From the NCBI RefSeq assembly GCF_017313335.1, contig NZ_JAFLQW010000283.1, positions 1 through 32,513 of the forward strand: a DNA stretch of 32,513 nt, written 5' to 3'. Positions 10,536-28,003 of this stretch are shown in pieces. Source of the stretch: Phormidium pseudopriestleyi FRX01. Its GTDB lineage: Bacteria > Cyanobacteriota > Cyanobacteriia > Cyanobacteriales > Laspinemataceae. Made by a program: the position numbers and the translations under genes. The number at the start of each line of letters is the position of its first letter. Positions within the stretch are counted from its first letter, which is position 1. The notes beneath the pieces were generated by a model, which was not told where the DNA came from, made no database searches, and worked only from the letters and a program-made list of their open reading frames with translations.

Positions 10536-12203
10536 TTAAAAGGTGACCCGATCGCGCAAGCGTTCTGATAGAGTGGGACCAATTCCGGAGACCCGTTGCA
10601 AATCCTCCACTGAGGTGAATGGTTGCTGCTGCCTGGTGGCAATCATCCGAGAGGCTAAAGCCGGACCAATTCCGGGTAACTCCTCTAACTCCTGCTGAGT
10701 GGCGCGATTCACATTGATTCGGGCCGATGGAGATAATGCGGGAACCGGAGTGGGTGAGCCACATTGCTGAATCTGTTGTTCGATTCTGGCCTCAATATGG
10801 CTGGGTAAACCCAAACGAGCCGTGTTATAAAGTCGTTCAAACTCTCGCCTAAAATGGGCTGCGACGATGGGAGAGTCAATGACCAATAGGGTCTCATCAT
10901 TGCGAGAATTAGCGGCGGCGGACCAGTTATGAGACCCGGTGATCACGGTGCGATCGTCCAAGAGGGCAAATTTATGATGAAGGCGATCGCCCGGAGGTAA
11001 CTGGGGAACGCCTACCGTATCCAGGGGAGTAGACCAAGGTTGGTTACCCTGATCATACTGACAATTTTGATTGGGTAAAGCCACCCCCATCATGTCCAAC
11101 CCTTCGCTATAACTGCGATAGGCAAAACTGGCATCAATAAGCGCACGGACTTGGACCCCAGTCTGATGACGAGCATAAAGAGTATCGCTTAACTGCTGTT
11201 TTGAGAAGACAAACAGGGCCAGGTCCACGGATTGAGTCGCTTGGTTCAACGTATTGGCGATCGCCCCATTGACACTCTGGGCCCAAGGAACTCGCGCCCC
11301 CGTCGGAGCAAATTGCACCCCCACCGAACTCGCCCCCAAATTCACCCACTGCTTCGGGCGAAATGATTTTTGGACTCCAAAGAGACTATCCGACTCACCG
11401 CCTGGGCCATCCCCCCACATTAAGTTAAACTCTTGTTGAAATAAACCGGCTAATTCCGAACTCGATATTTTGAGTAAATTATTGGGATTACCGCGACTGG
11501 TGGGAGAGAGAAAATCTCCGTGGATGTCACTGGTGGTAAAATTGGCCGAAGTGACGATTACCATGCGACCATCGGCGATCGCAAATTTATGGTGCATCAA
11601 CCCACTGCCTTTGGAACCATCTGCCGTATCGTCAATCGTCGGCACCCCAGCATTTTTAAAAATGATTAAAGCATCCCCCTGGACGATTTCCTCCGAACTG
11701 AGAGAACCATCCTGGTTGCGATCAATCAGGTGACGCCACTCCTCATACCGCGCTTTGTTGCGTTCATCCAGACGGGCGACTTGCTGCGGTGTCAACTCAC
11801 TGAGGGCTTGATTATAGGTATTTTCCAAAATCACCCGGACCCTGACACCGGATTGATGCTTCTGTGCGAGGGCCTGAGCAATCTTAGGCAACTGCAACTC
11901 TTGAACTGCCACCTCCACTGTGGATGTGGCACCATTGATGGTATCCACAATCAACTGTTCCAAATCATCCCCCGGTCGAGTGATGCCTCGGTAAGGTTCT
12001 GAGTAATCCAGGACCGGATTCTGGTTAAAATAAACCTCCACAAACGGATCTTGGGGTAGGGGAGGGAGTCGATGCAGTGTGGGTTGAATTTCTTCTTTGC
12101 AACCGCTTACCATCAGGCCCAGAATCGCTACAAACACTGACCACGGAAGGGCCCAGAATCGCGGAGGTTGTGGAGTTTTTCGTAGGATCAGCAGTAGAAG
12201 CAT
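10536..12203 (-). CDS. Lipoprotein PLD-superfamily protein with EF-hand loop and ComEA-like HhH tail
   Basis: This 555-residue protein has a signal sequence with lipobox LMVSGC (lipid Cys 35), so it is exported and anchored. Two phospholipase-D HKD motifs are complete: H204/K206/D211 (HHKFAIAD) and H409/K411/D416 (HHKFALLD). Residues 161-172 (DRNQDGSLSSEE) match a calcium-binding EF-hand loop inserted in the first PLD half. Residues 495-555 form a ComEA-like double helix-hairpin-helix domain (LPGIGPALASRMI, VSGIGPTLSERL), which binds DNA in other proteins. PLD-family members can be phospholipases or nucleases. The DNA-binding tail favours a nuclease acting on extracellular DNA, which is inference. 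No partner gene is adjacent. Confidence 0.88.
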   Translation of the reverse strand: MLLLLILRKTPQPPRFWALPWSVFVAILGLMVSGCKEEIQPTLHRLPPLPQDPFVEVYFNQNPVLDYSEPYRGITRPGDDLEQLIVDTINGATSTVEVAVQELQLPKIAQALAQKHQSGVRVRVILENTYNQALSELTPQQVARLDERNKARYEEWRHLIDRNQDGSLSSEEIVQGDALIIFKNAGVPTIDDTADGSKGSGLMHHKFAIADGRMVIVTSANFTTSDIHGDFLSPTSRGNPNNLLKISSSELAGLFQQEFNLMWGDGPGGESDSLFGVQKSFRPKQWVNLGASSVGVQFAPTGARVPWAQSVNGAIANTLNQATQSVDLALFVFSKQQLSDTLYARHQTGVQVRALIDASFAYRSYSEGLDMMGVALPNQNCQYDQGNQPWSTPLDTVGVPQLPPGDRLHHKFALLDDRTVITGSHNWSAAANSRNDETLLVIDSPIVAAHFRREFERLYNTARLGLPSHIEARIEQQIQQCGSPTPVPALSPSARINVNRATQQELEELPGIGPALASRMIATRQQQPFTSVEDLQRVSGIGPTLSERLRDRVTF

Positions 12204-14891: not shown

Positions 14892-15902
14892 CTATTCATA
14901 AGATCCCCCGGTGACTTTGCCTCGGAATACAACATATTGATAGAGGTTGTAAAACAACATCACGGGAATCAGCGCCCCTATCATCACAATCATAATCACT
15001 AACGAACTCGGATCTGCCGCTGCTTCATAGATGGTGATTTTTGAAGGAATGATATAGGGAAACACCACAAGGGCCAAGCCCAAAAACGTTAAGACAAAAA
15101 GCAGAATTGTCCAAATAAATGGCATTCTTTCCTGTTTGCGATCCAAGCTTTTCAGCAATAGCCAAATTAACAGCACACCCAGTAAAGGAATCAGAGCAAA
15201 CACATAAACTTGGGGTCCTTCAAACAAGCGCGTTCTGGCTTGTTCATAAAAAATTGGGGTGACAATGGTAATCAAAACTGCGCCGATTAAAGTCGTTATG
15301 GATGCTATTTTTGCCGTCTTATAGTGGGTTTCCTGGAGTTCTCCCGTAGTTTTCCAAATCAGATAAGTTGATCCAATTAGTACATAGCCTTGAATTAAAG
15401 TTAAGGCAACTAGAATGGATTGCCAACTCAACCAGTCCCAAGTGCTGCCAATAAAATGGCCATTGCTATCGACTTCAATACCTTTCAAGACAGCACCCAA
15501 GGCAAATCCTTGACCGAGTGCGGCGAGAAAACTACCGCCACCAAAGGCCAAATTCCACAATAATTTTCGGTTAGATTGCTCTCGAAACTCAAAGGCAACA
15601 CCCCGAAAAATAAACCCAAATAGCATCACAAAAATGGGAATATAAAGCGCGCTAAGAATGGTGGCATACGCTACGGGGAATCCCCCAAATAAACCACCTC
15701 CCATCAAAATCAGCCAAGTTTCATTGGCATCCCAAATATTGCTCAAGCTCGTCATGAGAATTCCGCGTCTGTCTTCCGATGAAGCCGTCAGAGATAAAAT
15801 TCCGACCCCTAAATCGAACCCGTCCAACATGACGTAAAGAAACAGGAATAGGGCTAATATTCCAAACCAAACTAGGGGTAAAAAATAACTGAGTGTCTCC
15901 AC
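14892..15902 (-). CDS. cydB: Cytochrome bd quinol oxidase subunit II
   Basis: This 336-residue integral membrane protein pairs with CydA in the bd oxidase, which oxidises quinol and reduces oxygen to water without pumping protons. The N-terminus (VWFGILALFLFLYVMLDGFD) and IWDANETWLILMGGGLF are diagnostic of the family. Eight or more hydrophobic spans cover most of the length. It starts at GTG 15902 with AGGAG 6 bases upstream (AGGAGCGATCGTG). Eight bases separate it from cydA, so the two are one operon. In cyanobacteria this oxidase is usually of the cyanide-insensitive type and helps under high light or stress. A hairpin terminator follows. Confidence 0.96.
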   Translation of the reverse strand: METLSYFLPLVWFGILALFLFLYVMLDGFDLGVGILSLTASSEDRRGILMTSLSNIWDANETWLILMGGGLFGGFPVAYATILSALYIPIFVMLFGFIFRGVAFEFREQSNRKLLWNLAFGGGSFLAALGQGFALGAVLKGIEVDSNGHFIGSTWDWLSWQSILVALTLIQGYVLIGSTYLIWKTTGELQETHYKTAKIASITTLIGAVLITIVTPIFYEQARTRLFEGPQVYVFALIPLLGVLLIWLLLKSLDRKQERMPFIWTILLFVLTFLGLALVVFPYIIPSKITIYEAAADPSSLVIMIVMIGALIPVMLFYNLYQYVVFRGKVTGGSYE

Positions 15903-15910
15903 GATCGCTC

Positions 15911-17353
15911 CTATTGTTTTGTTTCGACAGGTCGTTCATTGGGTAGAAATTCTGCCGGTTTTGTGTCCATCGCCGGTTGCGGTTCTATCCCAGGAATAGG
16001 TAAGTCAAACCGGGGTCCGCGACGAATAATCCGGCTGCCAAAATAGAGGACACAGAAGAATAAAATGCTGTAGACGATCGCAAACCCAGTTAAGGTCGTT
16101 AAAACATTACTCGCCGGGAGATTAGAAACCGAATCAACAGTGCGGATTTGTCCATATAAGGTCCAGGGTTGCCTCCCCACACAGCGCACAATCCATCCCG
16201 ATTCAATGGCAATATATCCCAAGGGGGCGGCAAAAATCCAGCTTCCCATTAACCACCTTTGTTGGCTAATATTTTCTGGAGAAAGTTTCCCGCGCATCCA
16301 TTGCAGGGCGGAAATTAGCATTAAACCGGCTAAAAAGAACCCGATGGCAATCATGGTCCGAAATGCATAGTAGATTAACCCGACTAAATGGGGTCGGTCC
16401 TCCGGTTTCCATTCGTTCAGTCCTTTGACAGGAAGGGTGAGTTCTTTTTTAAATTCCAGAATGTATCCCAAGGCATTGGGAACTGTAATTTCCCAGTCAT
16501 TTTTCTGGGCTTTTTCATTCGGAAATGCCACTAAACTCCAATCGCCCCCTTGTCCAGCCGGAATGGTTTCCCATTGCGCTTCCATTGCGGCTAATTTGGC
16601 CGGTTGATAGTGATAGACTTGTTCACCGCTTAAATGGCCGATATAGAGTTGTAACGGTGCCACGGCGATCGCCGCTGCCAACACAATTTTAAACGACTTG
16701 CTAAAAAATTCATGATGGCGATTTTTAAGAATGTACCAGGCGCTAATTCCTCCAATCACAAACAGCGAGGTTTCCAGGGTGGCAAAAAACATATGCAGCA
16801 CGCTGTTCACCATGAAGGGATTCGTAATCGCTTCAAAATAATCTCGAACTATGAATTTTCCATCCACTAATTCTCCTCCGGCAGGGGTTTGCATCCAGGA
16901 GTTGGCAGTTAATATCCAAAATGTGGATAAATTGGACCCGATCGCCACTAAAATAGTAGCCAAATAGTGAATCCCTGAATTCACCCGTTCCCAACCAAAC
17001 ACCATAATCCCTAAAAATGCCGCTTCTAGCATAAACGCCCAGGATGCTTCAAACCCAATGACGCTGCCAAAAAAATTGCCCACCGCTTCAGAAAACGGTG
17101 CCCAGTTTGTTCCAAATTGAAATCCCATCGGAATCCCCGATGACACCCCAATTCCAAAATTTAGGACAAATAATTTTGACCAAAATCGGGCATGGTAATA
17201 GTAGTCTTTATTGCGCGTTTTTAGCCAGATTCCCTCGACAATTACGAGATAAATTGACATCCCGGTAGTCAGAACCGGCCACAGCATATGAAAAATAGCT
17301 GTCAGCGCAAACTGCATTCGCGATAACACTAACGTATCGGATAGAAAATCCAC
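15911..17353 (-). CDS. cydA: Cytochrome bd quinol oxidase subunit I
   Basis: This 480-residue subunit carries the haems b558, b595 and d. H22 (IFHMLWPV) matches the N-terminal haem-ligand histidine, and NSVLHMFFATLETS holds a second histidine. GRQPW near residue 393 is the CydA signature. The Q-loop is short, as in cyanide-insensitive oxidases. The start is GTG 17353 with a perfect AGGAGG 7 bases upstream. A perfect 10-bp inverted repeat at 17392-17420 lies 39-67 bases upstream of the start, well placed for a regulator. cydB follows after 8 bases. Confidence 0.96.
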   Translation of the reverse strand: MDFLSDTLVLSRMQFALTAIFHMLWPVLTTGMSIYLVIVEGIWLKTRNKDYYYHARFWSKLFVLNFGIGVSSGIPMGFQFGTNWAPFSEAVGNFFGSVIGFEASWAFMLEAAFLGIMVFGWERVNSGIHYLATILVAIGSNLSTFWILTANSWMQTPAGGELVDGKFIVRDYFEAITNPFMVNSVLHMFFATLETSLFVIGGISAWYILKNRHHEFFSKSFKIVLAAAIAVAPLQLYIGHLSGEQVYHYQPAKLAAMEAQWETIPAGQGGDWSLVAFPNEKAQKNDWEITVPNALGYILEFKKELTLPVKGLNEWKPEDRPHLVGLIYYAFRTMIAIGFFLAGLMLISALQWMRGKLSPENISQQRWLMGSWIFAAPLGYIAIESGWIVRCVGRQPWTLYGQIRTVDSVSNLPASNVLTTLTGFAIVYSILFFCVLYFGSRIIRRGPRFDLPIPGIEPQPAMDTKPAEFLPNERPVETKQ

Positions 17354-17591: not shown

Positions 17592-17902
17592 TTATCTTTT
17601 AAAATCTGGATTTTCCTTGATTTTAGAGCGTTGCTCAGTCACATAAGCCAAGGTTTTTTGGGCATCAGAGGCCGGGGTTTGCTCGGGGATATCTGTAATA
17701 TGCCACCAAGCATAGATGAGTCCTGCTGCTCCCCCTCCAACTACCCCAAATAAAATACTCACAGCGGTTGAATACCCCAAAAAGCCAAACATAACCATGA
17801 AAAATATCCACATTTTAACCCCAAAAGAAATGCCTTTTTCTTTGGGTGATTTGGGATGTTTTTTGACAGTTGCTGTCACTTTTTTTTTTGCCAGTTTGCC
17901 AT
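17592..17902 (-). CDS. Small two-span membrane protein with apparent frameshift at an A10 tract
   Basis: The in-frame part (17592-17879, GTG start) encodes 95 residues with a basic N-terminus and two adjacent hydrophobic spans near residues 22-41 and 43-61, then a soluble tail (YVTEQRSKIKENPDFKR). The GTG has no ribosome site. Upstream, ATG 17902 has GGAGA at a good distance and reads MANWQKKK into a run of ten A's (17880-17889), where the frame ends in TGA. One extra A would join MANWQKKK to VTATVKKHPKSPKEK in one 103-residue protein. Transcriptional slippage, a real frameshift or a homopolymer sequencing error could explain this. The function is unknown, although similar small membrane proteins occur in cyanobacteria. 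Confidence 0.65.
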
Positions 17903-17942
17903 ATATTTTCTCCGAATTGTGAGGGGTAAAAAATGGGCAAAA

Positions 17943-19496
17943 TTAGGGATTGATTTGGGTGATAAGTGGTTTTAATTGGGCCTCGATATCGCCGGTAGTG
18001 TCGAGGGATGTAAGGTATGGAAGTTCTTTCTCACAAAACGGTTCGGCAGTTTGTTGCTGGCTGTCGAGGAGATCTGCAGTGGCATCGGCAATATCTCCTT
18101 GGCGGTGATTGAGCCGATCGCACAAGACGGCGATCGCAGCGGTACAATGCAAAATCTCCAAAGGCAATCCGCTGTCTCTAGCGGCACCGATCGCCTCTTC
18201 CCTCAACCCTTGCCGGTCATATTTGGCATCCAAAATCACCGTCCATCCCTCACTTGCTACCATTATCCCCAATTCTAACAATCGAGCATAAGTCTGGGCG
18301 GTCATTTCTGGGCTGTATATCTCATCACCCCCTTTGGACTGCAGGGAAATCCCTGCCAAATGCTTGCGGACTGCATCTGATCGGATGTGAATCGCCCCAG
18401 TCGCCCTAGCTAACTGTCGGGCGATCGTACTTTTTCCCGAACCGGATAAACCGGACATTAAAATTAATCGCCCTTGGCGAGGTTGTGTGTACTGCCATGC
18501 TACTTGATAATAATGGGCTGCAGTTCCCCTTGCTTCTTCCTTCTCATCCTCGGCAATGTTAGCATCGTCCAACATCAACGAGGTCACTTTAGCTCGGACA
18601 TACGCCTGCCGACTTAAGTATAATTGGAGCACTTGCAACCCTTGCCAGTCGCCGGTTTGTTCCAAATAAGTATTTAAAAACCCGTTGGCGAGGTCCTGTC
18701 GTCCCCTAGCTTCCATATCCATGACGGCAAAACCAATATCATACATAACATCCACAAACCGAAAGGCTTCGTTAAATTCAATGCGATCGAACAGCACAAT
18801 CTGATTATCCCACAGGGCAATATTTTTAAAATGCAAATCCCCGTGACATTCGCGAATTTTATCCAGTTGCATTCGCTGCTCAAACTGAGAAGATCGTTCC
18901 GCAAAAAAACAGTCGCTGTAGGCTTTGGTTTCCTCAAATTGCTGGCGGGTTTGGGGTCCATCGATATAAAGTTGGGATTGCTTGTAATTATTATCGATCG
19001 CCACCCGGATTTTAGCCACCTCCCCAAAACTTTTAATATAGTCATTCGTCGGCGTTTGCCGATGAAACTCAGCCACAACTTGGCCTAATTGTTCCATCTG
19101 CTCTTGGGTGAGTTGACCCTGCTCAAATTGATGAATTAATAACGCCTCTTGAGGAAACTGCCGCATTTTTAAAGCATATTCAACGGATTCACCATTCCCA
19201 TTCAGTTCCAATCCACTGCCTTGTTTAGTGACTGCCACGACTTCCAGATACATCTGGGGTGCAATCTGTCGGTTTAAGCGCAACTCTTCATCGCAAAAAT
19301 GATGGCGTTTTTCCAGGGTAGAGTAATCTAAAAAGCCAAAATTAACCGATTTTTTGACTTTATAAACATAATCTCCCGTCAACAGAATAAACGAGGCATG
19401 GGTTTGCATCAAGGTGACGGGTTCTTGCACCGGATGGGGATAAAAGTCTCCCTGCATCATCTGGGCGATCGCCTGGGGAAGTCTGGACTGACTCAT
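17943..19496 (-). CDS. Fused APH-like phosphotransferase and P-loop kinase
   Basis: This 517-residue protein joins two kinase-like halves. Residues about 1-330 resemble aminoglycoside phosphotransferase-fold proteins, with the catalytic-loop motif HGDLHFKN (218-225) and a metal-binding aspartate in LFDRIEF (D237). Residues about 340-517 form a P-loop kinase with Walker A GLSGSGKS (349-356) and a lid region holding RSDAVRK. The same two-domain arrangement is known in bacteria (COG2187 plus COG0645) without an established substrate. The start at 19496 was chosen because GGAGG lies 6 bases upstream; upstream in-frame ATGs lack such a site. An antibiotic-resistance role should not be inferred from the fold. 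Confidence 0.85.
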   Translation of the reverse strand: MSQSRLPQAIAQMMQGDFYPHPVQEPVTLMQTHASFILLTGDYVYKVKKSVNFGFLDYSTLEKRHHFCDEELRLNRQIAPQMYLEVVAVTKQGSGLELNGNGESVEYALKMRQFPQEALLIHQFEQGQLTQEQMEQLGQVVAEFHRQTPTNDYIKSFGEVAKIRVAIDNNYKQSQLYIDGPQTRQQFEETKAYSDCFFAERSSQFEQRMQLDKIRECHGDLHFKNIALWDNQIVLFDRIEFNEAFRFVDVMYDIGFAVMDMEARGRQDLANGFLNTYLEQTGDWQGLQVLQLYLSRQAYVRAKVTSLMLDDANIAEDEKEEARGTAAHYYQVAWQYTQPRQGRLILMSGLSGSGKSTIARQLARATGAIHIRSDAVRKHLAGISLQSKGGDEIYSPEMTAQTYARLLELGIMVASEGWTVILDAKYDRQGLREEAIGAARDSGLPLEILHCTAAIAVLCDRLNHRQGDIADATADLLDSQQQTAEPFCEKELPYLTSLDTTGDIEAQLKPLITQINP

Positions 19497-19576
19497 GTTG
19501 TCCTCCATTGTGATCAATTCGGCTCCCGGAAAGCGGAAGGATGAATTTTACCACTTCATCCTTCCTGCTTTTGCTA

Positions 19577-27241: not shown

Positions 27242-28003
27242 TTAATTATCCATCAAGTTAAGGAAAGGTTGGTTTGTTTGGGAGAGGTTCAGATCTAGGC
27301 TATACCCTAACTCCAGAGCTTGGTCACGTCTTGACTGATTATTGGAGTATTCTGTGATGTTAATATTATGACAAATTGCCCAGTATAGGGCATCGGATTC
27401 CATGAATACACCACCGGGCTGATTACCTGGACTGAGGTTGTTAATGGTGTAGTTATTCCCATCGGAAAACACCACCATTGGACGTTGGATCGAACATAAA
27501 ACTTTGGTGGAAGCTTCCTGTAATATCCATTCGCCGACGGTTTCACCGAGGGGGACTTTGTAGGTTAAGACTTCGGTGTCGTAGAGTCGTTCCCCATCGG
27601 CTTCTTGCTTCAAGTAGGTAAACGTATAGTAAGTCTCCAGGCATTGTCCCATTCGACAATAACTGGTGAGGAGGGTTAAATTTTCATCGATGATTGCGGT
27701 TTCGAGCGCTTCTAACCGCATCATTTCGACTTCACTTTGCGCCACCTGGGTTTCAGAATGGGAGGGGACGGAGGTGATTGGAGTTGGGGAAATCGGGACA
27801 TCTTCTGAAACTGTGAATACTTCTGAGTCGTTAGAAACTACGGAGTCTGTGGAAACAACTTCTGTCTGTGCCGATCGCAAAGGTTGGGTACAGCCTAGGG
27901 TAATCCCAACGGCGATCGCCAAGGTAATGATTCGCTGAATCTTGGACGTATTTCCCTGGCAGGCTGGACTGTTGGGACTGGATTGTTGAGACTCTAAATC
28001 CAT
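27242..28003 (-). CDS. Putative lipoprotein of unknown function
   Basis: This 253-residue protein has a hydrophobic stretch (about 22-37) ending in ITLGC, a lipobox-like site with Cys 38, so it is probably exported and lipid-anchored. The N-terminal 20 residues before it are long for a signal peptide; a start inside is possible. A serine/threonine/valine-rich linker (45-90) leads to a domain of about 160 residues with four cysteines (YCRMGQC, VLCSIQ, AICHN) that could form disulfides. I recognise no family. It lies downstream of the histidine kinase gene on the same strand, 176 bases apart, so co-transcription is possible but unproven. Confidence 0.6.
   Translation of the reverse strand: MDLESQQSSPNSPACQGNTSKIQRIITLAIAVGITLGCTQPLRSAQTEVVSTDSVVSNDSEVFTVSEDVPISPTPITSVPSHSETQVAQSEVEMMRLEALETAIIDENLTLLTSYCRMGQCLETYYTFTYLKQEADGERLYDTEVLTYKVPLGETVGEWILQEASTKVLCSIQRPMVVFSDGNNYTINNLSPGNQPGGVFMESDALYWAICHNINITEYSNNQSRRDQALELGYSLDLNLSQTNQPFLNLMDN

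Follow-up and report, generated by a model that had tools for sequence, protein, structure and literature searches.

Does the run of ten A's (A10) in the Phormidium pseudopriestleyi FRX01 stretch analysed here (the window, 32,513 nucleotides (nt) in all) act as a switch on the small gene that it divides, or has an ordinary gene lost its frame there? The gene in question, a candidate membrane protein, occupies 17592-17902 on the minus strand when read in the frame of its counterparts in related species, and is one base short here; the features of the gene given below all lie on that strand. We consider it highly probable that this is an ordinary gene whose frame has been broken by a one-base change of length in a long A run, whether through an error of reading or assembly or through a recent slip, and that it carries no conserved switch.

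The start of the gene reads GGAG, 7 nt, ATG GCA AAC TGG CAA AAA AAA AAG TGA. As the first-pass annotation had described, the ATG (17900-17902), provided with a ribosome-binding-like GGAG 7 nt upstream (17910-17913), opens a frame of eight codons, MANWQKKK, that runs into the A10 run (17880-17889) and stops at a TGA (17876-17878). The long downstream frame (17592-17879; 95 codons) begins, again as described, at a GTG lacking its own ribosome site.

The gene and its congeners

The comparison covered seven congeners (Laspinema and kin), one genome per species, with no second strain of the window species among them. All seven have the ATG at the same place, and in each the distance from this codon to a downstream KGISF motif is 66 nt, in frame, that distance being 65 nt in the window. 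A single additional base therefore restores the spacing of every congener, and the earlier proposal that the two frames form one gene is borne out; so is its arithmetic, by which one extra A would give a protein of 103 residues (8 + 95). Comparison of the ends of open reading frames (ORFs) gives a matching picture, the congeners' ATG lying eight codons ahead of the window's GTG. An independent downstream gene, starting at the GTG, was ruled out by the shared position of the ATG. The GGAG is found in five of the eight genomes, that of the window included.

A check of the tract length and of the N-terminus in relatives had been suggested at first pass. The position of the start codon proved common to all the congeners, but the long run did not: its counterpart is interrupted in every one, with six A's following the interrupting bases in six and three in the seventh, the form CAAGATAAAAAA being present in four. 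In the window, A's stand where the congeners have the interruption, and one base is missing.

Substitutions in the downstream protein bear on whether the gene is still used. Over 87 codons, comparison of the window with each of the seven congeners gives ratios of non-synonymous to synonymous substitution rates (dN/dS) of 0.08-0.31; a single residue (V to G) is private to the window, against 4-7 in each congener. By this measure the protein is still constrained, so that either the frame was freed only recently, or the DNA itself carries no break, or translation yields the protein despite it. The closest congener in synonymous divergence (dS) is G002, at 0.13. In the G002 copy a TAA replaces a codon near the end of the gene, leaving a protein without its last seven residues.

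By base composition the run is unremarkable. The window contains two overlapping matches to nine A's, both in this one run, compared with a mean of 2.70 in shuffled sequence, and the 5.97-megabase assembly (G000) has six runs of ten A's, none longer, together with 90 of exactly nine. Since the run is unsurprising by composition, it is the frame break, rather than the presence of the run, that requires explanation. By way of background, avoidance of A runs becomes visible at nine A's in a large share of bacterial genomes, according to PMC1088944.

The sequence of events that we favour would begin with a congener-like CAAGATAAAAAA, the interrupting bases of which would have been replaced by A's to give an uninterrupted, in-frame run of eleven. 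This run is now recorded as ten, and the missing base would be either a read or assembly error or the product of recent slippage during replication in the population sampled. Sequencing error, named as the main alternative at first pass, is a viable account. For orientation, a population-genomic study of Laspinema employed Illumina reads and SPAdes, as stated in PMC9500459; this concerns that study's own genomes. Should the missing base be an error, the gene ought to be annotated as intact, and no gene of the assembly ought to be declared broken at a long homopolymer until that run has been verified.

Were the A10 real, the locus would be one more frameshift at a 5' poly(A) run in the manner of the Listeria monocytogenes gene inlA, in this case in a cyanobacterium and observed soon after the run had lost its interruption. 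In inlA, seven A's are in frame and six lead to a stop after residue 8; AAGAAAA is the form of other lineages (PMC2831843). The likeness is close, since both have a run near the 5' end where one A fewer halts translation after residue 8, and both have an interrupted in-frame run in other lineages. This anatomy is what favours a contingency tract, in which replication slippage between A10 (off, an 8-residue peptide) and A11 (on, 103 residues) would switch the gene within a population. However, isolates of Listeria differ in the length of the inlA run, and rates of switching have been measured (PMC2831843), whereas here there is one assembly and an uncharacterised gene. The run is uninterrupted in the window genome only, hence no length variation is observable; nothing was found that would mark the gene as a surface antigen, and, among 59 genomes from the genus, family and order, 35 have relatives of the 95-residue protein, a figure that counts the window genome. 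As will be seen, other genes of the assembly are also broken at A and C runs. We regard a contingency tract as improbable. The first-pass suggestion of a device for slippage or phase variation accordingly finds no backing, since the run is not conserved, the break occurs, among the genomes compared, in this assembly only, and three other genes are broken at long homopolymers.

Long homopolymers elsewhere in the assembly

Long homopolymers also break three unrelated genes in other parts of the assembly, an A9 run in two cases and a C9 run in one. Each of them has one base too many, so that the gene of the window, with one base too few, is opposite in sign. At the first place (L137; G000:C383:6350-6360) an A9 run splits a gene of an orphan family, about 375 residues long, the halves of which align end to end with seven homologues from the same order (L169-L174 and L176) that read through; this family has no match in the seven congeners and no Pfam match above cut-off. 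At the second (L062; G000:C108:12631-12641) a gene that by eye we call retropepsin-like goes out of frame after an A9 run, and three relatives in congeners keep the C-terminus that in G000 sits in another frame. At the third (L077; G000:C225:1673-1681) a C9 run splits a large gene that by eye we take to resemble a CHAT-domain protein, and an 85%-identical match in G004 lies within an open frame of 1173 codons. Because one of these genes is broken at a C run, a mechanism specific to A's is weakened. Change of homopolymer length in this assembly is special neither to the A10 gene nor to A's, and an origin in the cell is not distinguished from one in sequencing.

These genes emerged from a survey of all 96 runs of nine or ten A's in G000, classed by frame length as spanned (14), 'broken' (11) or other (71). 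The translations of five of the 11 'broken' runs were read and one, L137, was accepted. L062 had been classed as spanned and was found by eye, and the run of the window fell under other because its upstream frame is short. A further 22 runs of at least nine G's or C's were surveyed, from which L077 was accepted. For comparison, 88 A/T runs of at least nine were surveyed in G004 (three contigs; A/T only) among the matches listed (100 of 114), with the last six listed places left out; by eye, no clear broken gene was found at these 88 runs, L252 being ambiguous. For A runs the tally is at least three broken genes per 96 in G000 (the window gene, L137 and L062) as against none clear per 88 in G004. 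This excess is suggestive only.

Two of these cases have points against them. The L137 family decays elsewhere too, a copy in G158 having several stops (one of 13 other genomes matched), and the congener matches of L062 are just 45-47% identical and come from three of the seven. Other points weigh against the reading of an ordinary gene broken by a length change. Long runs are not invariably faulty, since the frame is intact at the assembly's second long A10 run within a gene (L034, on contig C449; by eye the gene has TPR-like repeats) and at several A9 runs within genes, and the survey of the other runs was made partly by eye. From the assembled sequence alone, error and real slippage are indistinguishable. 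Finally, the replacement of an interruption by A's would, if real, be just the look expected of a phase-variable tract at its birth.

A broader proposal takes in several genes at once. If long homopolymers were unusually unstable in this Laspinema-like lineage, for example through weakened mismatch repair, a number of unrelated genes, that of the window among them, might gain and lose their frame, with shifts of either sign, those broken at A runs being kept alive by transcription slippage. We think this very unlikely. A separate observation concerns the A10 run at L035 (G000:C480:494-503), whose last A is also the first base of the ATG start codon of a gene for a small membrane protein, presumably one resembling a photosystem II subunit.

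Recoding and restart at the run

One aspect of the anatomy had gone unmentioned at first pass. The stop is reached through the heptamer A_AAA_AAG (17879-17885), with the TGA immediately 3' of it, and overlaps the GTG of the 95-codon frame in a GTGA (17876-17879), so that the gene, to judge from these letters, might not be silent even with a true A10. A real A10 would probably allow partial expression, via A11 transcripts, a -1 slip on the heptamer or reinitiation at the GTGA. In that event the gene may be leaky rather than off, with nearly the same protein coming from all three routes; because the TGA is reached through A_AAA_AAG, a -1 slip would yield the same residues as an A11 transcript.

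Could such expression be the point of the arrangement? Recoding, regulated or constitutive, would supply the full protein either by RNA polymerase slippage, giving A11 transcripts, or by -1 ribosomal slippage. With respect to the polymerase, the A10 at 17880-17889 is an A/T run of at least nine in a coding region with a conserved second frame, as expected of a gene employing transcriptional slippage. A run kept by relatives would also be expected, but across the congeners it reaches A6 at most. The nearest parallel is tssM1 of Citrobacter rodentium, with an A11 run that is rescued by transcriptional frameshifting (PMC4256274, in the part available). There, as here, a long A run lies just 5' of a stop and the remainder is in another frame. 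Unlike the present candidate, which is known from its sequence and has a run that is not conserved, both products of tssM1 are demonstrated and needed, according to the same part of that report. Nor do the congeners need any recoding.

As to the ribosome, A_AAA_AAG is a site of -1 programmed frameshifting, of which dnaX is an example. Our heptamer is in the correct phase for a -1 slip and agrees with the X_XXZ_ZZN pattern in the zero frame, its motif class being among those treated in the accessible portion of PMC4066793. It differs from programmed sites in that it is not conserved and that neither a hairpin nor a Shine-Dalgarno-like element lies at the spacing typical of a stimulator. A predicted 6-bp hairpin (UGACAG-CAA-CUGUCA; 17864-17878, from fold prediction and inspection) begins directly at the end of the heptamer, at 0 nt, as against a range of 5-8 nt downstream, and the GGAG ends 24 nt before the heptamer, beyond the 6-17 nt range for a Shine-Dalgarno-like stimulator (both ranges from that portion of PMC4066793). 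Within the same portion of this E. coli survey of -1 heptamers, the three best V_VV.A_AA.G heptamers reach about 0.3% without stimulators; prokaryotic cases are stated there not always to have a downstream structure. The fold of the hairpin has a z-score of -5.7 over a 51-nt stretch but 0.48 over 90 nt. Its arms are kept in two of the seven congeners, G003 and G006, with five complementary bases per arm by inspection that are absent from their predicted folds. Taking both kinds of slippage together, we judge recoding an unlikely account of the locus.

A third route would be use of the GTG, with ribosomes that end at the TGA restarting at the overlapping codon and the protein losing its first eight residues. 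The GTGA overlap invites this, and across 30 translated loci (the window's included) the segment ahead of the hydrophobic stretch differs, as judged by eye, both in length and in sequence. Yet the GTG lacks a ribosome site and the ATG is kept in every congener, and we hold this route to be unlikely.

The protein, its neighbours and the remainder of the window

The window protein has high hydropathy between about residues 20 and 58; this hydrophobic stretch, some 40 residues long, is read as two putative membrane segments. By eye, the 30 loci have in common a hydrophobic core that contains small-residue motifs and is flanked by ends that vary. No Pfam or NCBIfam model matched the 95-residue frame above its cut-off, and an identity with PAM68/DUF3464, considered at the outset, was rejected for want of a match. 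Among the matches listed in a literature search on cyanobacterial phase variation, homopolymers and slippage, no title dealt with the gene or the genus.

Upstream of the gene lies one with AAA_33 and APH matches, and downstream the gene for a cytochrome bd subunit I. A cydA-cydB-like pair (window 14892-17353) adjoins the gene; neither member was matched in the stretch fetched from congener G007, where the pair may be absent or elsewhere.

The idea that the window is generally rich in small insertions and deletions was ruled out by comparing the ends of 20 other window ORFs with the congener stretches, no end difference being common to the congeners. These ORFs were chosen by judgement as genes; one, 27242-28003, was compared with a single congener, and a few pieces were cut at the borders of the fetched sequence. 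In a test for inner splits, 21 window ORFs match congener DNA without any, a test that is blind to breaks at ORF ends and in which the A10 gene itself appears whole. A scan with congener frames of at least 60 codons gave 25 split pairs, those outside the A10 gene being judged by eye to be non-gene frames or intergenic. Exceptions among the ORF ends are two upstream ATGs, one in G007 that precedes the aligned start of 10536-12203 by 65 codons and one in G003 that precedes that of 17943-19517 by 14; a few other ends differ by some residues.
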